Positions 428 to 12,584 of a DNA stretch of 64,000 nucleotides are shown piece after piece; the stretch's first letter is position 1, and each line of letters opens with the position of its first letter. The notes beneath the pieces were generated by a model. That model saw only the letters and a program-made list of their open reading frames with translations, ran no database searches and was not told the origin of the DNA. The position numbers were made by a program, and so were the translations under genes. Source of the stretch: Chloroflexota bacterium (GTDB lineage Bacteria > Chloroflexota > Dehalococcoidia > Lucifugimonadales > JACPQL01); contig JACPQL010000011.1 of NCBI GenBank assembly GCA_016190445.1, positions 1-64,000 of the forward strand, read 5' to 3'.

Positions 428-1120
428 GTGCCGAGTCAGCCCTGTGTCCTGGTGGTGGACGACGAAGCCTACGTGACCGAGATGCTGAAAGAGTGGCTGG
501 AGGAGGAGGGGTACCGGGCGTGCACAGCATCCAATGCCACTGAGGGGCTGAAGCTGTTCTATGACTGCCACCCCGATGCTGTGGTGGTGGACCTGCTCAT
601 GCCAGGCATGGACGGGTTCCAGCTTATCGGCCGGATCCGAGAGCTGTCCCAGGCACCCGTCCTTGTCCTCACCGCTCTCAGTGGTGACGACGATATTGTG
701 CGGGGACTGGACTTGGGCGCCGACGAGTACGTGGTCAAGCCGGTGTCCAGGAACTCCTTCCTGGCAAGGGTACGCTCTCTGTTGCGACGCGGCTCACAGG
801 AAGGAGAGGAGACCGGCAGCTACACCGACCCTGTGCTCAGTCTGGACACCAGCACCCATTCGGTATCCGTCAAGGGCCAAGAGGTGCACCTCTCTCCCCT
901 GGAGTTCCGGCTGCTCGCCTACCTGGTCCACCACCGGCACCGCGTGGTGACCCACGATGAGTTGCTCAATCGCGTCTGGGGGAGTGAGCTGGGCTCCCTG
1001 GAGAGCCTCAAATGGTACACATCGTCCCTGCGTCGGAAGCTGGAGGCCGGCTCCCCGGGCCTGGTCGTCAATGTACGGACTGTAGGCTACCGCTACCTTC
1101 CTCCTCAGGCACCGGAGTAG
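428..1120 (+). CDS. OmpR/PhoB-family response regulator
   Basis: A two-component response regulator of 230 residues, the usual length. The N-terminal receiver domain (about 1-118) shows the acidic pair D11/D12, phospho-acceptor D55 in VVVDLLMPGMDG, T82 and K104. The C-terminal winged helix (about 130-225) contains the LSPLEFRLLAYL and TVGYRYL signatures of DNA-binding OmpR-type domains. It probably binds direct repeats in promoters. The start is GTG, with GAGGA about ten bases upstream; no better start is in frame. Its 3' end overlaps the 3' end of the convergent kinase gene by 53 bp, an unusual arrangement if the two are partners. The target genes are not shown directly, but phased GTGTGA repeats nearby are candidates. 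Confidence 0.93.
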   Translation: MPSQPCVLVVDDEAYVTEMLKEWLEEEGYRACTASNATEGLKLFYDCHPDAVVVDLLMPGMDGFQLIGRIRELSQAPVLVLTALSGDDDIVRGLDLGADEYVVKPVSRNSFLARVRSLLRRGSQEGEETGSYTDPVLSLDTSTHSVSVKGQEVHLSPLEFRLLAYLVHHRHRVVTHDELLNRVWGSELGSLESLKWYTSSLRRKLEAGSPGLVVNVRTVGYRYLPPQAPE

Positions 1121-2459
1121 CTGGAAGCTGCACCTCCACGCGGGTCCCCTGCCCTGCCACGCTCTCCACATTGAGGCAGCCATGGTGCATCTCCACAATG
1201 TGCTTGGCGGAGAAGAGCCCCAGCCCAATACCGTTCCTCTTGGAGGTGTTGAAAGGCTCAAAGAGGCGAGCGTACTGCGCCTGGGGCATCCCGGGCCCGC
1301 TGTCCGTAATGCTCACCCGCAGATGCTCACCCTGGGCAACCGACAGCTCCACCCGGACCTTGCCGCCAGCAGGCACCGCCTCCACTGCGTTGCTCACCAG
1401 GTTGCTCAGGGCCTCGCGCAGCAGAATGGGATGACCCTCCGTATGCACGGCCTGCACGTCATAGGCCCGCTCAATAGTGACTGACTTGTTGACCCTGATG
1501 GTGGACATCCCGATGGCCTCTTCCAACAGGGGGACCAGGTTCAGCTTCACCCACCGTTGCCGCGCCACGCTCAGGAACGCCTCGGCGAGTTCGTTCATCC
1601 GCCAGGCCGCCCGGACGGCCTCGTCTATCTTGGGGGCCATCGGGTCTTCAGGTGACATCCGCCGTTGCAGGCTCTCCAGCCGCCCGATGACTATGAAGAG
1701 GGGGTTCTTCAACTGGTGGCTCAGGTCCAGGGTGAACGCGCCGACGGTGGCCAGCTTGGCGTTCTGCAACACCTGGCCCTCAAGGCTCTTCAGCTTGTCG
1801 TACGCTTCCTGAAGCAGCATGTTGGCCCTGGATAGCCGCGAGAAGGCAAAGTAGATGATGAACACTGGTACCAGCAGGGCCAGAATTGCCACCGGGTGCT
1901 CGTGATAGGCGACGGCAGCCAGATAGCCAAAGGCGAACAGGCTCAGTTCGGCTAGGCCGTTCTCCCTGGTCCCCCGCCACCATAGTCTCAACGGTGTGGC
2001 CCGTGTCTGGACGGCGGCCACCAGCGACACGAGAGAGCTGTTGACCAGGAACATGGAGAGAACTGGGACCGCCACCGCTGGTGTGGTCAGGTCATCCCCC
2101 GCCAGGGCATGAAAAGCCCAGGAGGCCAGGCCAACGGAGATAGCGACCTGCCCAGCGTTGAAGGGGTACTTGTACCACGGGAAACGTAATACAACCTGGT
2201 ACGCCACACCCCCCACCACCGCAGCCAGGGCCGCCACGCCAGGAGGTAGAAGAAGGACGATGGGAAAGAGTGCGGCCGTGGTGACTGTGGCCTTTATGCG
2301 CGGCCCCACCTGGAGCGGAAAGAGGCCAGCCGCCACCACCAGCACAGTAAAGAGGCTGGCGGTCTCGGCCACGGGCCAGCTCCACTCCACCAGCCTGAGC
2401 AGATAGACCAGCCAGCCCGCACCAGCCAGAAAAACGCCTACGATGACCGTGGCAAGCAT
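1068..2459 (-). CDS. Multi-pass membrane sensor histidine kinase
   Basis: The first ~205 residues are a series of hydrophobic segments (about six to eight helices) with no large extracellular domain, so the signal may be sensed within the membrane. A short coiled linker follows, then the H-box LDLSHQLKNP with the phospho-accepting histidine near residue 248. The catalytic domain has an N-box (LSNLVSNAVEAV), a G1 box (DSGPGMP) and a G2 box (GIGLGLF). The frame stays open to 2594, but those 45 residues look like intergenic sequence, and the ATG at 2459 directly precedes the first membrane helix. The OmpR-type regulator at the left edge, convergent and overlapping by 53 bp, is the obvious candidate partner. 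Which start is used is uncertain. Confidence 0.88.
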   Translation of the reverse strand: MLATVIVGVFLAGAGWLVYLLRLVEWSWPVAETASLFTVLVVAAGLFPLQVGPRIKATVTTAALFPIVLLLPPGVAALAAVVGGVAYQVVLRFPWYKYPFNAGQVAISVGLASWAFHALAGDDLTTPAVAVPVLSMFLVNSSLVSLVAAVQTRATPLRLWWRGTRENGLAELSLFAFGYLAAVAYHEHPVAILALLVPVFIIYFAFSRLSRANMLLQEAYDKLKSLEGQVLQNAKLATVGAFTLDLSHQLKNPLFIVIGRLESLQRRMSPEDPMAPKIDEAVRAAWRMNELAEAFLSVARQRWVKLNLVPLLEEAIGMSTIRVNKSVTIERAYDVQAVHTEGHPILLREALSNLVSNAVEAVPAGGKVRVELSVAQGEHLRVSITDSGPGMPQAQYARLFEPFNTSKRNGIGLGLFSAKHIVEMHHGCLNVESVAGQGTRVEVQLPATPVPEEEGSGSLQSVH

Positions 2460-2681
2460 GGCGTTTGCTCGTCTCTTCGGCAACAGGGACGATTCTGCCG
2501 GCTCAACCAGGCGAAAGGCCGGCTGCTTCAATGATGCGCCCCCTCCCCCCTCTCCGAGGCGAGACTCCCGGTGTGCAGCCTCCGGCCCCCACACCGCAGG
2601 GTCCCTTGGAATGTCAACGGCATATGACCCCCTGCTCTCTTTTACACCATACTACAAAGTCTGCAAAAGGGCCTGAAGATA

Positions 2682-2768: not shown

Positions 2769-2882
2769 TGGCCGAAGGCCGAGGGAGAGGTTCAACGGGC
2801 CGCATTTTCATCCCACCCTTGGCAAGATAAAGACACGAGGCCTGGGGATGTCTCCCCAGGCCTCTCCCAGAGTGTGTAACTC

Positions 2883-3320
2883 CTACCTTGCTGGCACGAC
2901 CCCGGAGACAACAATGCTCTGTCCCAGCCCTCCCTGGGCGCTGGCCAGGGCCACACCGTCAGCCACAAGAGTCACCGTAACGGTCTTGCCCGTTGCGCCG
3001 TTCAGCGCCGCGACCCTGTAGCTGGCCTGCACCTGCACCCCATCCGCCGTCCTGACCAGCTTATCAGTGGCCAGCAGGACCACCTTCTCTTTGTCGGTCA
3101 ACTGGCCCACCAGCGTCACATCGGCCCCTTTCGGATAGCTGAACTGAATGTTCGCCCTGTAGTTGTTAGCGCCATCAGGGTCGTCCACCGACCAGACCGT
3201 ATGAACGTCAGCGCCTTCTACATTCAACTGCGCGTTCCAGACCCAATCGCCCAGGGCAACACTGGTGGTCACCAGCAGGGTCGCCACCATGGCTACTCCC
3301 ACCATGCACAGCCTACGCAT
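2883..3320 (-). CDS. Secreted protein of unknown function
   Basis: About 145 residues. The start is ATG 3320, preceded by a strong AAGGAGGG site; the frame extends a further 45 bases upstream without such a site. The N-terminus MRRLCMVGVAMVATLLVTT is a typical Sec signal peptide, probably cut after VALG. The remainder is rich in Val, Thr, Asp and Ala, with alternating patterns (VTLVGQL, VQVQASYRV, VTVTLVADG) that suggest an all-beta, immunoglobulin-like fold. It has no cysteines in the mature part and no LPXTG or membrane anchor. I do not recognise a family. About 115 bp upstream lie four GTGTGA-type direct repeats with 11-bp spacing, so it is the best candidate target of one of the nearby OmpR-type regulators. 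Confidence 0.8.
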   Translation of the reverse strand: MRRLCMVGVAMVATLLVTTSVALGDWVWNAQLNVEGADVHTVWSVDDPDGANNYRANIQFSYPKGADVTLVGQLTDKEKVVLLATDKLVRTADGVQVQASYRVAALNGATGKTVTVTLVADGVALASAQGGLGQSIVVSGVVPAR

Positions 3321-3436
3321 CTTCCCTCCTTGCTCCCCAGGTGGTCTTGGTCTCTTTTCACTCACACTATGGTTACTACGGGAGACACAGCCCCCTGGGC
3401 CGCTCCCACAGGCACCTATCTAAATATCACAGGAAA

Positions 3437-3475
3437 GTGTGAATGTGGTGTGATAGTCGTGTGACAAAGGTGTAA
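3437..3475 (+). promoter_or_regulatory. Four direct GTGTGA repeats, exact 11-bp period
   Basis: GTGTGA at 3437, 3448 and 3459 and GTGTAA at 3470, separated by unrelated 5-bp spacers. This is the geometry of OmpR/PhoB-type response-regulator operators, where protomers bind head to tail on one face of the helix. It lies upstream of the leftward secreted-protein gene, and 430 bp upstream of the rightward ABC transporter gene. Repeats and spacing are seen directly; the binding protein is inferred. Confidence 0.65.
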
Positions 3476-3901: not shown

Positions 3902-5566
3902 ATGCGACGACTGCTCGGTAGCATGCTGCTGTTGGTTGCTCTCTCTTTCCTTAGTGGCGCCTGCGCCGCCGCCGGTCCCACCCCCACCCCGACCTCGGGC
4001 GTAGCCCTGGCGACCAATCAGGAGCTCCGCTCCAACCTGGCAGGGGAGCCAGACAACATTGACCCCAACCGCGCCTCTTTCTCCCACGAGATAACCGTTG
4101 TCAAGCAGGTCTTTGAGGGCCTCCTCAGCTTCGACGACCAGTTGGCGGTGGTCCCCGTTGTCGCCAACGAGGTCCCCACGGTGGCCAACGGTGGCATCTC
4201 CTCCGACGGCCTGACCTACACCTTCAAACTCCGCTCTGGCGTCAAGTGGAGCGACGGGAAGCCGGTCACTGCAAAGGACTTCGAGTACAGCGTCAAGCGG
4301 ATGCTGAAGCCGGAGACGGCGTCCGACTACGCCTCCTTCTACTACGACATCAAGGGCGCCCTGGAACTGAACAGTGCCCAGGCCACCACCGATGCCCTTC
4401 TGTCCGCCCTGGGGGTCCAGGCGGTGGACGAGTCCACACTGCGGGTGACCCTGGCCAGCCCACGCCCCGCCTTCCTCCAGATCATGGCGCTGTGGTCTGT
4501 CTACCCCGTGCGACAGGACATCATCGAGAAGTTCGCAGATAAGTGGACGGAGCCGCCCAACTACGTGGGCAACGGGCCTTACGTCCTCAAGGAGTGGGTG
4601 CACCAGGACCACATAACCTTGGAAGCCAACCCCAACTACTGGGGGACCAAGCCCAAGCTCCAGAAGATCGTGCTCAAGATGATGGCCGATGAGAACGCGG
4701 CGCTGGCGGCGTACAAGAACAACGAGATGGAGCTGGTGGCGGTCCCCGCCGGGGGCGAGAAGGCCATCTTTGACGACCCGGTCCTGAACAATCAGAGCCT
4801 CCGCTACCCCGACCTGGTGACCTTTGCCCTCCAGTTCAACGTGAAGAAGCCCCCCTTTGACAATAAGGCTGTGCGCCAGGCCCTGAGCAAGGCCATTGAC
4901 CGGGAGGCCTTCATCAACCAGGTCCGCAGGGGCGTGGGCAGGCCCACTACAAGCTGGATCCCACCGGGAATGCCTGGCTTTGACGCCAACCTGGGTAGTG
5001 GGAACAGGCTCAACGTGGCGGCGGCCAAGGACGGGCTGGCCAAGGCGGGCTATTCTGACCTGACCAAGCTGCCACCCATCACCTTCCAGTTCACCGACAC
5101 CACGGGCAACCGGACCATCGCCCAGTTCGTGCAGGCCCAGTTCAAGCAGAACCTGGGAATTGATATCAAGCTGGAGCCCATGGAGTCCAAGGCGTTCCAG
5201 CAACTGATAAAGGACAACAACATCAATAACATGGCCTTCCTGGGCTGGGGCGCCGACTACCCGGACCCGGACAACTGGCTGCCGGAGCTCTTTGGCACCG
5301 GCGCAGGCAACAACCACACCAACTACAGCAACCCGGAGTTCGACAAGCTGGCGGAACAGGCCAAGAAGGAGCTGGATAACACAAAGCGGCTCCAGCTCTG
5401 GGACCAGGCCCAGAAGCTGGTGGTGGACGACGCACCCGTCGTCTTCCTCTTCAACCGGGAGCGCTTCTGGCTGAAGAAGCCCAACACGGCCGGCCTGAAG
5501 ACCACGGGCATGGACGGTTTTGTCCCGGGCGACTGGTTCCTGGAACAGGGGTACATTACGAAGTAG
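3902..5566 (+). CDS. ABC transporter substrate-binding lipoprotein, family 5 (oligopeptide/dipeptide/nickel type)
   Basis: The extracytoplasmic solute receptor of an importer, 554 residues, normal for the SBP_bac_5 family. It has a signal peptide with a lipobox-like LSGAC (Cys21), so it is probably a membrane-anchored lipoprotein. A Pro/Thr-rich linker follows. The family signature lies around residues 100-125 (YTFKLRSGVKWSDGKPVTAKDF). FDNKAVRQALSKAIDRE and the C-terminal WGADYPDPDNW also fit the family. The start is set by AAGGAGGG five bases upstream. Two permease genes follow after a 150-bp gap containing a strong terminator-like hairpin, an arrangement that would let the receptor be made in excess. 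The substrate cannot be read from sequence. Confidence 0.95.
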   Translation: MRRLLGSMLLLVALSFLSGACAAAGPTPTPTSGVALATNQELRSNLAGEPDNIDPNRASFSHEITVVKQVFEGLLSFDDQLAVVPVVANEVPTVANGGISSDGLTYTFKLRSGVKWSDGKPVTAKDFEYSVKRMLKPETASDYASFYYDIKGALELNSAQATTDALLSALGVQAVDESTLRVTLASPRPAFLQIMALWSVYPVRQDIIEKFADKWTEPPNYVGNGPYVLKEWVHQDHITLEANPNYWGTKPKLQKIVLKMMADENAALAAYKNNEMELVAVPAGGEKAIFDDPVLNNQSLRYPDLVTFALQFNVKKPPFDNKAVRQALSKAIDREAFINQVRRGVGRPTTSWIPPGMPGFDANLGSGNRLNVAAAKDGLAKAGYSDLTKLPPITFQFTDTTGNRTIAQFVQAQFKQNLGIDIKLEPMESKAFQQLIKDNNINNMAFLGWGADYPDPDNWLPELFGTGAGNNHTNYSNPEFDKLAEQAKKELDNTKRLQLWDQAQKLVVDDAPVVFLFNRERFWLKKPNTAGLKTTGMDGFVPGDWFLEQGYITK

Positions 5567-5625
5567 CGCCGGGCTGCCGGGTAGCCTGCCTGGCGGGGTG
5601 CTGTTGAAACGGATTAGGGACTGCC

Positions 5626-5656
5626 GGGGGTCTGGGGGTGCCCCAGACCCCCTTTT
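5626..5656 (+). terminator. Hairpin terminator between receptor and permease genes
   Basis: GGGGGTCTGGGG, a 3-base loop, then CCCCAGACCCCC followed by TTTTCTCTC: a 12-bp perfect GC-rich stem with a short U-run. It probably acts as a partial terminator that lowers expression of the downstream permeases relative to the binding protein. Confidence 0.75.
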
Positions 5657-5715
5657 CTCTCTCCCCCTTCACCAGGTGGACATAGGGAGAAAGGGCTGGT
5701 GCGAGAGCAGTTACC

Positions 5716-6633
5716 ATGCTTCAGTACGCAGTGCGGCGGACTCTGTGGCTCATACCCGTCTTGTGGGGAGTGGCCACAATAACCTTCGTGCTCATGCACT
5801 CCGTGCCCGGCGGGCCCTGGGACCGGGAGAAAACTCTGCCTCTCACGGTACAACAGAACCTGAACCGGCGCTACGGGCTGGACAAGCCTGTCTGGCAGCA
5901 GTACTTCCGCTTTCTGGCTGGCGTCGCCCGGGGCGACCTGGGCGTATCCTATACCTACCAGGACCGAGAGGTGGTCAGCATCATCGCCGGTGGCCTTCCT
6001 GTGACGGCCACCGTCGGGCTCACCGCCTTCACCCTGGCCATCCTGGTGGGAGTCCCCCTGGGTCTGGCGGCAGCCCTCCGACAGAACTCCCTGTTGGACT
6101 ACGTGTCAGTGCTGTTTGCCACCAGCTTTGCCAGCATACCCGGCTTTGTGCTGGGCATCCTTCTCATCATCCTCTTCTCGGTGACGCTTCACCTGCTGCC
6201 CACCGGCGGCTGGGGCAGCGTGAAGCAGGTGATCATGCCCGCCGCAGCGCTGGGAGCGCTCCCAGCCGCATGGGCCGCCCGACTGACTCGCGCCAGCGTG
6301 CTGGAGGTGGTAGGCCAGGACTATGTTCGCACGGCCTATGCCAAGGGACTTCCGGACCGGGTCATCTATTACCGCCACATACTGCGCAACGCCCTGATCC
6401 CAGTGATAACTATCATGGGGATCGAGTTGGCTGCCCTGGTGACAGGCTCCTTCATCATTGAGAACCTCTTCTCCATCCCCGGCGTTGGGCGGCTTTTTGT
6501 ACAGGGGGTGTTCCAACGGGACTACGGGCTCATCATGGGGTCAGTGCTATTCTACGCCTTTGTTGTAGCGCTGTTGAACCTGGCGGTGGACCTGCTGTAC
6601 GGGGTGGTTGACCCCAGGGTCCGCTACCGGTAA
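5716..6633 (+). CDS. ABC transporter permease, DppB/OppB type
   Basis: An inner-membrane permease of 305 residues. It begins with the family's MLQYAVRRTLWLIPVLWGV first helix and has about six membrane helices. The coupling loop that contacts the ATPase is seen as DYVRTAYAKGLPDRVIYYRH (about residues 210-230). The end, LYGVVDPRVRYR, is typical of DppB. It forms the channel with the next permease. No ATPase (DppD/DppF) gene lies in the window, so the transporter must borrow ATPases encoded elsewhere. Confidence 0.95.
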   Translation: MLQYAVRRTLWLIPVLWGVATITFVLMHSVPGGPWDREKTLPLTVQQNLNRRYGLDKPVWQQYFRFLAGVARGDLGVSYTYQDREVVSIIAGGLPVTATVGLTAFTLAILVGVPLGLAAALRQNSLLDYVSVLFATSFASIPGFVLGILLIILFSVTLHLLPTGGWGSVKQVIMPAAALGALPAAWAARLTRASVLEVVGQDYVRTAYAKGLPDRVIYYRHILRNALIPVITIMGIELAALVTGSFIIENLFSIPGVGRLFVQGVFQRDYGLIMGSVLFYAFVVALLNLAVDLLYGVVDPRVRYR

Positions 6634-6643
6634 GGGGAGGCCT

Positions 6644-7582
6644 ATGTCCGCCGCAAGGGGCGGTGCGAGCCCTGGGCCCAGCGCTGCGGGGCAGCAGGTT
6701 GCGCTGCCCACCGCGCACCGGGGTCCCTGGAGCGAAGCGTGGCGGCGCCTGCTCTCCAACCGTCTGGCCGTGGCTGGCATGGCCACGGTGGCGTTCCTGG
6801 TGCTGGTGGCGGTGCTTGCCAACCTAGTAGGACGGAGTAACCCCACCTTCCAGGACTACTCCGCCATTCAAGAGCGGCCCAGCGCCCGCCACTGGCTGGG
6901 TACCGATGAGCTGGGCCGCGATGCCTTCAGCCGGTTGGTCCACGGCGCTCGGGTGTCCCTGGCAGTGGGGATGTTCACCCAGCTTATCGCCCTCTCCATA
7001 GGACTCCCGGTCGGCGCCATCGCTGGCTTCGCAGGGGGACGGACGGACAACGCGCTCATGCGCTTGGTGGACATAGTTTACGGTTTCCCCGACCTTCTCT
7101 TCATCATCCTGCTGCGCGCCGTCTTCGGGGGCAGCGTCTTCATGATCTTCCTGGCTATTGGGCTGGTGGTCTGGAGCAACATCGCCCGCCTGATCCGAGG
7201 CCAGATACTAACACTGAAGGAGCAGGAGTTCATCACCGCAGCCCGCGCCACTGGGGGCACGGGCACCCACATCGTGCTGCGCCATCTCATCCCCAACTCT
7301 CTCGGGCCGGTGACCGTGGCGGTGAGCTTTGGCATTCCCCGGGCCATCTTCACCGAGGCTGCCCTCAGCTACATCGGCATCGGCGTGAACCCACCCACGC
7401 CGACCTGGGGGAGCATGATCCGCGATGGCTACTCCCTCATCTTCTCCTCGCCCCACCTGGTGGCCATCCCGGCCGTGGCCATCGCCGTCACCATGCTGGC
7501 CTTCACCTTCCTGGGCGACGGCTTGCGGGACGCCCTGGACCCCCACACCCGGGGCGCGAGCCGCCTTGGAACCGGCAGGTAG
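6644..7582 (+). CDS. ABC transporter permease, DppC/OppC type
   Basis: The second permease of the importer, 312 residues from ATG 6644, which follows AAGGGGAGG closely. The frame opens 36 bases earlier, inside the previous gene, but lacks that ribosome-binding site. It has an N-terminal soluble segment, a first helix (LAVAGMATVAFLVLVAVLANL), the family motif HWLGTDELGRDAFSRL, and a coupling loop EQEFITAARATGGTG near residue 195. It ends with LGDGLRDALDPHTRG, as DppC proteins do. The gap to the upstream permease is 10 bp, so the two are co-transcribed. Confidence 0.95.
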   Translation: MSAARGGASPGPSAAGQQVALPTAHRGPWSEAWRRLLSNRLAVAGMATVAFLVLVAVLANLVGRSNPTFQDYSAIQERPSARHWLGTDELGRDAFSRLVHGARVSLAVGMFTQLIALSIGLPVGAIAGFAGGRTDNALMRLVDIVYGFPDLLFIILLRAVFGGSVFMIFLAIGLVVWSNIARLIRGQILTLKEQEFITAARATGGTGTHIVLRHLIPNSLGPVTVAVSFGIPRAIFTEAALSYIGIGVNPPTPTWGSMIRDGYSLIFSSPHLVAIPAVAIAVTMLAFTFLGDGLRDALDPHTRGASRLGTGR

Positions 7583-8659: not shown

Positions 8660-9475
8660 CTAGGTGAGGGCTGGAGTGGGGATGAGCCACACCATGAGGA
8701 GGGGCCGGTCGTCTTCTGGGTCAGGCTCAGCGGGGACACTTACGCGGGCTACGCACTCTACGCCCCTTAGCTCCTGCTCCAGGCACGTGGGCGCCAGTAC
8801 CCAGACCAGTACCTCTACCCCACCCTCCCGCTGGGCCTCCACACGCAGGATCCGGAGTTGAGGCCTCTTGGAGAGCGTGGCCACAAGCTGGGCCACCAGC
8901 CCGGTGTGGGTGCCTACGTCCAAGCTCAGCCTCACCACGCCTTCGTACACATCGCCATCAACGCGCCCCAGGAGTCCGTCACGGACTGCCAGAGCACTCG
9001 AAGGTCCGTCCTGAGACTCGCTCTCTGGCCCACGCGGATGGGGTTCTTGGAACGCGGCCTGTACAAACTGCAGCGTTTCCTCTTGGTCCGTGTTCAGAGC
9101 GCCGGCACTGCGGGTCTCCCCCGCGTTGCTGAACGCATCGTCGAAGGCCCGCCGGATCTCCTCCTGGATCACCCCCAGGAGCCGGGTCTTCGCCTCTGCG
9201 ATGGCCGCACGGATATCCGCGCGTACATCGCCAAGCTCCTGCGCAATCCTGTCAACAACAGCTCCCTCTCGCACTCCGGCGGCTGACTTTACCTCCGCCT
9301 CGGGCCGCGGGCTGTCGTTCAACTGCTGGTGGTCCGCAGAGTGTTGCCCGTCAGGGCGGTGCCCGTTGAGGGCAAGAGATGTCCGTGCATCCTGCCCCTG
9401 GAGCCCGCCACCGCCCATCAGGCTCACCAGCCTCCTGCCTGTGGCTGCGCGGTATACCTCTTCTTGGGCCACCAT
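8660..9475 (-). CDS. Hypothetical protein, two-part architecture
   Basis: 271 residues, with the start supported by GGGAGG six bases upstream. The N-terminal ~65 residues are low-complexity and probably disordered. Residues about 70-125 form an amphipathic, possibly coiled-coil segment (DRIAQELGDVRADIRAAIAEAKTRLLGVIQ). Residues about 175-250 form an alpha/beta unit (VYEGVVRLSLDV, LVAQLVATLSKRPQLRILRVEAQREGG as separate strands and helix) reminiscent of a small ferredoxin-like fold. There is no signal peptide or catalytic motif that I recognise. From memory, similar C-terminal units occur in other Chloroflexota proteins, but this could not be checked. The divergent neighbour is an orphan response regulator. 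Confidence 0.7.
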   Translation of the reverse strand: MVAQEEVYRAATGRRLVSLMGGGGLQGQDARTSLALNGHRPDGQHSADHQQLNDSPRPEAEVKSAAGVREGAVVDRIAQELGDVRADIRAAIAEAKTRLLGVIQEEIRRAFDDAFSNAGETRSAGALNTDQEETLQFVQAAFQEPHPRGPESESQDGPSSALAVRDGLLGRVDGDVYEGVVRLSLDVGTHTGLVAQLVATLSKRPQLRILRVEAQREGGVEVLVWVLAPTCLEQELRGVECVARVSVPAEPDPEDDRPLLMVWLIPTPALT

Positions 9476-9678: not shown

Positions 9679-9717
9679 GTGTGAATACCGCGTGAGTGCG
9701 ATGTAAGAAATGGGTAA
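9679..9717 (+). promoter_or_regulatory. Four phased direct repeats upstream of an orphan response regulator
   Basis: GTGTGA (9679), GCGTGA (9690), ATGTAA (9701) and GGGTAA (9712) start exactly 11 bp apart. The geometry is that of the 3437-3475 array and the first box is identical. The array lies 55 bp before the regulator's ATG, consistent with autoregulation. It also lies in the region between divergent genes and could affect the leftward gene. Binding is inferred. Confidence 0.6.
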
Positions 9718-9772: not shown

Positions 9773-10474
9773 ATGGAGCAGAAGGACGCCAAGGCCAAGA
9801 TTCTGGTTGTGGATGACGAGGGGCCCATCCGCGAGATGCTGCGGGACATCCTGGAGCAGGAGGGGTACGCGGTCCAGGATGTGGCGGATGGCGAAGAGGG
9901 CCTGAAGACCTTCTTCTCCTGGAAACCCTCGTTGGTGGTGCTGGATATCCTTATGCCAAAGATGGACGGCTGGCAACTTCTGGAGCGCATCCGCGAGATG
10001 TCGGAGGCCCCCGTAATAGTCCTCTCTGCTCTGGCGGAGGAGAGACACGCGGTCAGGGGGCTACGCTCTGGGGCAGACGACTACGTCTCCAAGCCGGTCC
10101 GCACCTCTGAGTTCCTGGCCCGAGTGGAAGCGGCCCTCCGCAAGGCCAAGATAGGCCCCAGGGTGGAAGAGGCATACAGGGACAGAGTCCTTTGTGTGGA
10201 CTTCCTGCGCCACCAGGTGTACGTGGAAGGCCGAGAGGTGGCGCTCTCCCCTCAGGAGTTCCGGCTTCTGGCCGCCCTGGTGCGACATGCAGGCATGGTG
10301 CTGAGCACGGACCAGCTTCTGGACCTCTGCTGGGGCACTGGAGAGGGCGGGCCCGAGCTGGTTCGGGTATACATAGGCCATTTGCGGAAGAAGCTGGGAG
10401 AGGACCCCAAGAACGCCCTGCTCATCGAGACGGTAAGAGAGTTCGGGTACCGATATCGTCCCCCCGAGAGATGA
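9773..10474 (+). CDS. Orphan OmpR/PhoB-family response regulator
   Basis: 233 residues. The receiver domain has the acidic pair D14/D15, phospho-acceptor D58 in VVLDILMPKMDGW, S85 and K107 (YVSKPVRTSEF). The C-terminal winged helix contains LSPQEFRLLAALVRHAG, a LDLCWGTG turn and TVREFGYRYRPP. It is clearly paralogous to the regulator at the left edge of the window. No histidine kinase is adjacent, so it either shares the 1.1-2.5 kb kinase or uses a distant one. Upstream lie four 11-bp-phased repeats like those before the secreted-protein gene, suggesting that this protein, or its paralogue, binds them. Confidence 0.93.
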   Translation: MEQKDAKAKILVVDDEGPIREMLRDILEQEGYAVQDVADGEEGLKTFFSWKPSLVVLDILMPKMDGWQLLERIREMSEAPVIVLSALAEERHAVRGLRSGADDYVSKPVRTSEFLARVEAALRKAKIGPRVEEAYRDRVLCVDFLRHQVYVEGREVALSPQEFRLLAALVRHAGMVLSTDQLLDLCWGTGEGGPELVRVYIGHLRKKLGEDPKNALLIETVREFGYRYRPPER

Positions 10475-10533: not shown

Positions 10534-10814
10534 GCGTGCTAAAGGCTGTGACGGAGACGAGTAAGCAGGGGTAGGTGCTCAGCGAGCCGGGTAAGGTGTG
10601 AGCCGGCGCCCCGATCCTGGCCGAAAATCCCTCCTGAGCCGCCAGCCGAACCACCAGTGTCCCGGGTGCAGTAGGCGAGGTCGGGGTCGCGGCCCGTTAT
10701 AGACCGCGGGGCATGAACACGTGCCTTGCTAGAGGGTCTCGCCGTTAGCGGCGAGAAAATAGGGTGGTACCGCGGGAATGCACTCCCGTCCCTATGGGAC
10801 GGGAGCTTTTTTTT
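10534..10814 (+). promoter_or_regulatory. T-box riboswitch leader with terminator, upstream of ilvB
   Basis: A tRNA-sensing leader RNA. The hallmark T-box sequence AGGGTGGTACCGCG is at 10761-10774. Stem I elements include GGTAAGGTGTGAGCC and, on its 3' side, GAAAATCCCTCCTGAGC. The likely specifier codon is ATC (10627-10629, Ile), which fits a branched-chain amino-acid gene; the exact register is my reading and could be off. The leader ends in a 10-bp terminator stem (CTCCCGTCCC, TAT, GGGACGGGAG; 10783-10805) and eight Ts. Uncharged tRNA-Ile pairing with the T-box would favour the antiterminator and allow ilvB transcription. Confidence 0.93.
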
Positions 10815-10871: not shown

Positions 10872-12584
10872 ATGAGGCTTACTGGCGCACAGATAGTGTG
10901 TGAATGCCTGGTCCGAGAGGGCGTAGATGTGATATTCGGCATACCAGGCGGAGCTATCCTCCCCTTTTACGATGCCCTCTACCACTACCCTGGTATACGC
11001 CACGTGCTGGTCCGCCACGAGCAGGCAGCCGCTCATGCCGCCGAGGGGTACGCCCGCGCTGCCGGCAAAGTGGGGGTCTGCGTGGCCACGTCAGGGCCCG
11101 GCGCCACCAACCTGATAACGGGACTGGCCGCGGCCAAGATGGACTCCGTGCCCATGGTGGCCATAACGGGCCAGGTGGCCCGCCCCTTCATGGGTAAGGA
11201 GGCATTCCAGGAGTGCGACACCACCGGCCTGGCCAAGTCGGTGACCAAGCGTAGCTACCTGGTCCTGAGGGCCAGCGACCTGGCCCCCACCATGCGAGAG
11301 GCCATGGAGGTGGCCATGAGTGGCCGACCAGGGCCTGTACTGGTGGACGTGCCCAAGGATGTCCAGGCCGAGGTGGCGGAGTTCCAGTACCCCGATGCTC
11401 CAGTCCGGCCTTCCACCGGCGGGCTTCGCAGCAACGACCAGGTGCTCCGGGAGGCCGCCAGACTGCTGGCCGAGGCGGAGCGACCGGTGATCATCGCGGG
11501 CCACGGGGTGCTCATCTCCGGCGCCTGGGAGGAGCTGAGACAGGTGGCGGAGCGCGCCAACGTGCCAGTGGTCAACACGTTGCTGGGGCTGGGAGGCTTC
11601 CCACGAAGCCACCCCCTCAGCCTGGGTATGCTTGGAATGCACGGCATGTACTGGTCCAACATCGCCGTGGCGGAGGCAGACCTGGTGCTGGGCGTGGGCA
11701 TGCGGTTCGACGATAGGGTGATCGGCAAGCCTGGCACCTTCGCGCCCAAGGCAAAGGTCATTCATATAGAGGTGGAACCCTCCCAGGTGAACAAGAACGT
11801 CTTCGCCCACCTGCCGCTGGTGGGAGACGCCAGACAGGTGCTGAGAGCCCTGCTCCCTCTCCTGGAGCGCCGCGAAAGGTCTGCCTGGCTAGCCCGCCTG
11901 CGACTGCTACAGGAGCGCCACCCCAGCCTCTTCGTCCCCGATGGCCCAGGCCTGCCGCCCCAGTACGTGCTTGCCCGGCTGGACCAGATGCTGCATGGTC
12001 TCCCTGACTGGGTGGCGGTCACCGGCGTGGGCCAGCACCAGATGTGGGCTGCTCAATACCTCTCCGTGGAGCGTCCCAACTCCTTCATCTCATCGGGAGG
12101 ACTGGGGGTCATGGGGTACGAGCTCCCCGCCGCCCTGGGGGCCCAGATGGGCCGACCCGGCACCACAGTGTGGACCATAGCCGGAGACGGTGGGTTCCAG
12201 ATGACCCTCCAGGAGCTGGCCACACTGGCCCAAGAGAACCTGCCAGTCAAGATCGCGGTGTTCCACAACGGCTGCCTGGGCATGGTCCGCCAATGGCAGG
12301 AGCTTTTCTACGAGCGGCGCTACAAGGCGATCCCCGTGTCCAGCCCAGACTACGTCAAGCTGGCCGAGGCCTACGGGTTCCCCGGCCTCCAGGTCACCAC
12401 CAGGGAGGGGGTGGAGCCCGCTCTGGAGAGAGCAATGAAATACCCCGGACCTTTCCTTATTGATTTTGTGGTGAACACTGAAGAGAACGTTTATCCCATG
12501 GTACCTCCGGGCGCCTCCCTGGCGGAGACCATTGAAGACCCCCGGTCCCTAGCCGGAGTGAGCGTGGGAGCCCCGGCCCTCTAG
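10872..12584 (+). CDS. ilvB: Acetolactate synthase large subunit
   Basis: A ThDP-dependent enzyme that condenses two pyruvates, or pyruvate with 2-ketobutyrate, in the first common step of Val/Leu/Ile synthesis. It has 570 residues, the normal length. The catalytic glutamate is E50 (VRHEQAAAHAAEGYARA). The central FAD-binding domain lies at about 190-330. The ThDP motif GDGGF starts near residue 437, followed by HNGCLGMVRQWQELFYERRY. Expression is controlled by the T-box immediately upstream. No regulatory subunit (ilvN) or other ilv/leu gene follows, so those genes must lie elsewhere or the enzyme works alone. The TAG stop codon is also the end of a dispersed repeat. Confidence 0.96.
   Translation: MRLTGAQIVCECLVREGVDVIFGIPGGAILPFYDALYHYPGIRHVLVRHEQAAAHAAEGYARAAGKVGVCVATSGPGATNLITGLAAAKMDSVPMVAITGQVARPFMGKEAFQECDTTGLAKSVTKRSYLVLRASDLAPTMREAMEVAMSGRPGPVLVDVPKDVQAEVAEFQYPDAPVRPSTGGLRSNDQVLREAARLLAEAERPVIIAGHGVLISGAWEELRQVAERANVPVVNTLLGLGGFPRSHPLSLGMLGMHGMYWSNIAVAEADLVLGVGMRFDDRVIGKPGTFAPKAKVIHIEVEPSQVNKNVFAHLPLVGDARQVLRALLPLLERRERSAWLARLRLLQERHPSLFVPDGPGLPPQYVLARLDQMLHGLPDWVAVTGVGQHQMWAAQYLSVERPNSFISSGGLGVMGYELPAALGAQMGRPGTTVWTIAGDGGFQMTLQELATLAQENLPVKIAVFHNGCLGMVRQWQELFYERRYKAIPVSSPDYVKLAEAYGFPGLQVTTREGVEPALERAMKYPGPFLIDFVVNTEENVYPMVPPGASLAETIEDPRSLAGVSVGAPAL

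Follow-up and report, generated by a model that had tools for sequence, protein, structure and literature searches.

What controls the gene for a small exported protein in an uncultured Chloroflexota genome, and do the phased repeats in front of it form the operator of a nearby two-component system? The window, i.e. the whole stretch of 64,000 nt that was analysed, is contig C7 of genome G000 (2.02 Mb, 81% complete). Its relevant features are collected in Table 1, in which SEC denotes the gene for the exported protein, HK the neighbouring histidine kinase, and RR1 and RR2 the two response regulators.

Table 1. Positions of the putative operator and of linked features in the window
Feature	Position	Strand	Remarks
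Operator (putative)	3437..3475	-	Half-sites TTACAC 3475-3470, TCACAC 3464-3459, TCACAC 3453-3448, TCACAC 3442-3437, 11 bp apart
Putative extended -10, TGA-TATTTA	3421..3429	-	Inferred; 10 bp separate the last box from the hexamer
SEC, secreted 145-aa beta protein, likely target gene	2883..3320	-	No Pfam family
Terminator-like hairpin, 12 pairs, directly after SEC	2837..2864	-	Computed
HK, multi-TM histidine kinase with MASE9-like region, HisKA and HATPase_c	1068..2594	-	Domain matches
RR1, OmpR/PhoB-family response regulator	428..1120	+	Convergent with HK, 53-bp overlap; favoured array binder (predicted)
Divergent peptide-type ABC transporter genes (SBP_bac_5 protein, two permeases)	3902..7582	+	Linkage to SEC seen in several relatives
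Second, weaker four-box array, TTACCC/TTACAT/TCACGC/TCACAC	9679..9717	-	11-bp steps; between RR2 and ORF 8660-9475
RR2, second OmpR-family response regulator	9773..10474	+	47% identical to RR1

The four-box array in the window

Read on the minus strand towards SEC, the array consists of four 11-bp units (ATTTACACCTT TGTCACACGAC TATCACACCAC ATTCACACTTT CCTGTGATATTTAG). The initial annotation had described four GTGTGA boxes on the opposite strand, which slightly overstated the case, as the word is exact at 3437, 3448 and 3459 and the box at 3470 is GTGTAA, with one mismatch. The other two parts of that description stand: all three steps measure exactly 11 bp, and no similarity is seen among the spacers ATGTG, TAGTC and CAAAG. 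Because the spacers are unrelated, a slipped tandem repeat was rejected as the origin of the array, which shows a defining feature of OmpR/PhoB-family tandem operators, a word of 6-7 bp repeated directly every 11 bp.

The chance of such an object was estimated by searching for any hexamer, at any spacing from 8 to 21, repeated in four boxes with at most 1 mismatch and dissimilar spacers. The real window contained one, the array itself, and 2 of 200 dinucleotide shuffles also gave one (post hoc p ~0.01), thus the window by itself provides good though not decisive evidence. Two boxes with up to 1 mismatch were matched 4 times where 0.39 matches were expected. Three boxes, allowing up to 3 mismatches, were matched 4 times in the whole 2.02-Mb genome; three of these matches fall within this 6.3-kb neighbourhood, namely two overlapping frames of the array and one at 9679, and the array is nearly unique genome-wide.

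Conservation of boxes and phase upstream of SEC relatives

Comparison of orthologous control regions had been set beforehand as the test that could refute the operator reading, and upon running it we found both the boxes and the 11-bp phase conserved upstream of SEC relatives. They are kept in G025, G524, G567, G570 and both copies in G062, are weaker in G048 and G084, and the proteins that share the array have 23-55% identity. Upstream of the G025 orthologue (55% identity) the units read ATTCACACCCT GTTCTATCCTT ATTCAGGCTAC ATTCACACCTT; the boxes are TCAAAC/TCAAAC/TACCAT/TCACAC in G524 and GCACAC/TCACAC at 11 bp in G567 and G570, and the two G062 paralogues show three plus three boxes with steps of 11, 11, 21, 11 and 11 (counted by hand). 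No strong array was found upstream of the distant SEC matches in G094, G114, G351 and G385 or of the degenerate copy in G573. The latter (L029, 7631-7951) is truncated and diverged, and the stretch fetched around it has no match to HK or RR1.

The phase was scored with the fixed word TCACAC in ten upstream regions of SEC relatives against shuffles, leaving out the window itself and G570, a near-duplicate of G567. Spacing 11 gave z = 9.3, 12.3 and 14.2 for two, three and four boxes, respectively, and the next-highest spacings, 13 and 9, reached at most 7.6, as expected from the self-overlap of CACAC. Moreover, in 275 kb of related DNA nine four-box placements reached 19/24 at spacing 11 (some are overlapping frames of one array), and none did so at the control spacings 8, 10, 12, 14 and 16. 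A genome-wide search of 40 relatives returned only background outside the window's own array; matches in G003, G033 and G035 appear to be such background, since real and control patterns gave 4 matches each with up to 2 mismatches in the 39 other genomes. The relatives therefore provide an independent confirmation much stronger than the window-only statistics. The arrangement is conserved upstream of orthologous genes, as is typical of OmpR/PhoB tandem operators, and the operator geometry first proposed for this site is supported.

Genome G062 has a clear excess of three-box matches, 17 against 2 for the control pattern, with array loci at L054/L072, L060/L071, L063/L066 and L080/L081. One array (C19:41318-41376) lies near a gene for a predicted exported protein, and another (C19:29951-29989) near a small winged-helix-like gene followed by a predicted exported-protein gene; arrays beyond the two SEC copies suggest a wider target set in this genome. 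A four-box array in G035 (L131, C67:54924-54962; TCACAC/TCACGC/TCACGC/TCACAC at 11 bp) precedes a recombinase-like gene; SEC was not found in this genome, and the array may be due to chance.

SEC and its neighbouring genes

SEC had been annotated as a secreted beta protein, in agreement with its signal-peptide-like N terminus and a predicted fold that is all-beta after a helical signal peptide. The structure prediction was poor from the single sequence (pLDDT 55) and improved with a five-sequence alignment (pLDDT 81). Comparison of the latter model with solved folds gave no significant match, and no Pfam family was found at cut-off; by these two comparisons SEC has no sequence or fold relation to a known accessory protein. 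The gene is rare: within the order it is present in 6 of 250 genomes, and the class adds a few more. Searching genome contigs with SEC alone gave no matches, and the relatives recovered by a contig search with the kinase alignment are Chloroflexi/Dehalococcoidia MAGs. The operator type is already known, whereas for the SEC family and the SEC-HK-RR1 module we found neither a curated family nor a paper.

The same gene order, with SEC and HK on one strand and RR1 convergent, was observed in six loci, the window (G000), G025, G062:C71, G524, G570 and G048:C13. The 3′-ends of HK and RR1 overlap by 50-62 bp in five of them and are 4 bp apart in G048. A small exported gene is thus conserved beside a kinase and a regulator, as in two-component systems with exported accessory proteins, and this order supports the circuit of sensor, regulator and exported protein that the initial annotation had proposed. 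Hydropathy indicates no large loop in HK, and the kinase has no sizeable extracytoplasmic domain. The kinase beside the second G062 copy of SEC (L016, G062:C53, 8802-10748) has the same membrane sensor region at 57% identity, but it contains a PAS domain and its kinase core is another one, i.e. the sensor region stays with SEC and the output part changes.

As in known OmpR/PhoB operators, a regulator gene is conserved near the site, with two exceptions. G306 and G370 have HK and RR1 in the same convergent, overlapping arrangement but lack SEC; their RR1 shares 63% identity and has an almost unchanged recognition helix, and neither an array near HK/RR1 nor an excess of arrays elsewhere was found in these genomes. 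Hence the array travels with SEC, not with the kinase, and RR1 need not use the TCACAC word everywhere.

Genes similar to the divergent peptide transporter lie immediately upstream of SEC in G524, G567 and G570. We do not favour the transporter genes as the target of the array, being 426 bp away, in opposite orientation and without an array of their own. Further along the window, a T-box leader (RF00230, 98.9 bits, 10539-10796, plus strand) precedes an acetolactate-synthase-like gene (10872-12584).

A gap of 10 bp between the last box and a -10-like hexamer was observed in G000 (TATTTA), G025 (TATGAA) and G524 (CATAAT), and the distance differs in G062, G567 and G570; a promoter scan gave no sigma-70 match at the putative -10. 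In the pho regulon, pho boxes take the place of the -35 element at roughly 10 bp from the -10, and in the window the array has a similar distance to its putative -10. Due to the terminator-like hairpin between SEC and HK, SEC may be a separate transcript in this genome, and HK is not necessarily under control of the array; in G524 SEC and HK nearly abut, and no such hairpin was found at the corresponding position in G025, G062 and G570.

The likely regulator and a proposed circuit

Both OmpR-type regulators that had been noted within 7 kb were confirmed. RR1 consists of a receiver and a Trans_reg_C domain, and its nearest solved relative by sequence is PhoP of Mycobacterium tuberculosis (E 1e-42). 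Its scores are below all the NCBIfam equivalog cut-offs considered (MtrA 175 of 300 bits, PhoB 168 of 296, YycF 140 of 340), thus it is an unnamed member of the family. The helix GSL[ED]S[LV]KW is kept in RR1 across six genomes and differs in RR2. On TCACAGC-N4-TCACAGC, M. tuberculosis PhoP forms a compact tandem dimer; the 4-bp spacer is required, and affinity is higher for sites with three and four repeats (PMC4832192). Because the SEC-HK-RR1 order is conserved and the nearest solved relative recognizes repeats with a near-identical core, RR1 is the predicted binder, and on these sequence grounds we favour it, the nearer regulator, over RR2.

An operator of this type bound instead by RR2 or by another OmpR-type regulator, with RR1 serving other targets, is unlikely. 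RR2 stays in contention because the second array sits between RR2 and ORF 8660-9475, 55 bp upstream of the RR2 start; it reads towards that ORF (minus strand, 271 aa, no Pfam or NCBIfam match) from 204 bp upstream. In G567 and G570 the transporter genes have RR2-like genes as neighbours, genomes with RR1 and no SEC have no arrays, and since five OmpR-type DNA-binding domains are encoded in G000, other binders exist. However, the conserved module with SEC and HK contains RR1, not RR2, in G567 and G570 no strong array lies in front of the RR2-like genes, and on the stretches fetched from the array-bearing genomes G025, G062 and G524 there is no relative of RR2 closer than RR1. In addition, G025 (74% complete) encodes only two OmpR-type DNA-binding domains, one of which is RR1.

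Operators of a different regulator family, e.g. a CRP/FNR-type site, would account for the TGTGA in the boxes, which is the CRP half-site word, and for one inverted pair, TCACA-N6-TGTGA, at 3428-3441. Yet the arms of this pair are opposite to the consensus TGTGA-N6-TCACA and the pair is absent in G025, whereas the repeats of the array are direct, 11 bp apart, and conserved in phase over many boxes; a CRP-type site was therefore rejected, and this family of readings is highly improbable. Chance or repeat slippage without function appears even less credible. A post hoc p of ~0.01 from the window is not negligible in a genome scan, but the unrelated spacers argue against slippage, and the same word and phase occur upstream of diverged relatives and not at control spacings.

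The period of 11 bp is shared by the boxes of Streptomyces coelicolor PhoP (GTTCACC-N4), Escherichia coli PhoB and WalR/VicR (TGTWAH-N5-TGTWAH) (PMC4832192; PMC4168254). With the M. tuberculosis PhoP operator the array has in common this period and a near-identical half-site core, TCACA; the phylum, gene targets and kinase differ, RR1 is not an orthologue by curated cut-offs, and its binding to the array is predicted. The pho box and the WalR/VicR box are likewise direct repeats for OmpR/PhoB-family regulators. However, the opposite strand of the array reads TGTGAH three times and TGTAAA once, so that only one box fits TGTWAH, and the orientation of the box relative to the gene differs from that of the E. 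coli pho box CTGTCAT.

With a probability of roughly 0.7, we read the array as an OmpR/PhoB-type tandem operator at which RR1, phosphorylated by HK, activates SEC, and SEC may in turn act back on HK; this reading is based on sequence comparison. In this model, the membrane kinase HK would phosphorylate RR1, which would bind head-to-tail along one helix face, occupying up to four TCACAC half-sites, recruit polymerase and activate, rather than repress, a promoter whose -10 would lie about 10 bp beyond the last box. SEC would then be expressed, exported beside HK, and influence the kinase in turn, as its partner in feedback or signal sensing. Taken by itself, the feedback on HK is a tentative proposal to which we give somewhat less than even odds. 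It draws on analogy with CpxP-CpxAR (PMC4160245), DbfQ-DbfRS (PMC12714742) and HbpS-SenS-SenR (PMC4991794), where a small exported protein is encoded beside, or controlled by, a kinase-regulator pair. As in those systems, SEC is a small exported protein whose gene lies beside HK and RR1, and it may modulate HK in a similar way. Different from them, SEC belongs to no Pfam family and is predicted to fold as an all-beta protein, HK is a multi-TM MASE9-like kinase that lacks a large external domain, the RR1 gene is oriented convergently to that of HK, and the modulating role is assigned by analogy.

A broader and rather doubtful extension is that SEC founds an exported sensory or feedback family that serves as the missing external domain of Chloroflexota MASE9-like multi-TM kinases; the array would then close an autoregulatory loop, and the linked peptide transporter would supply or remove the signal.

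With this work, a regulatory guess made by eye in the genome of an uncultured Chloroflexota bacterium becomes a result of comparative analysis, with an operator word, its phase, a target gene and a likely regulator. It also defines the SEC family together with its kinase and regulator partner. TCACAC-N5 repeats offer a concrete box for finding target genes, e.g. in G062, and SEC-HK-RR1 would constitute a small circuit of sensor, regulator and exported protein that is directly testable.
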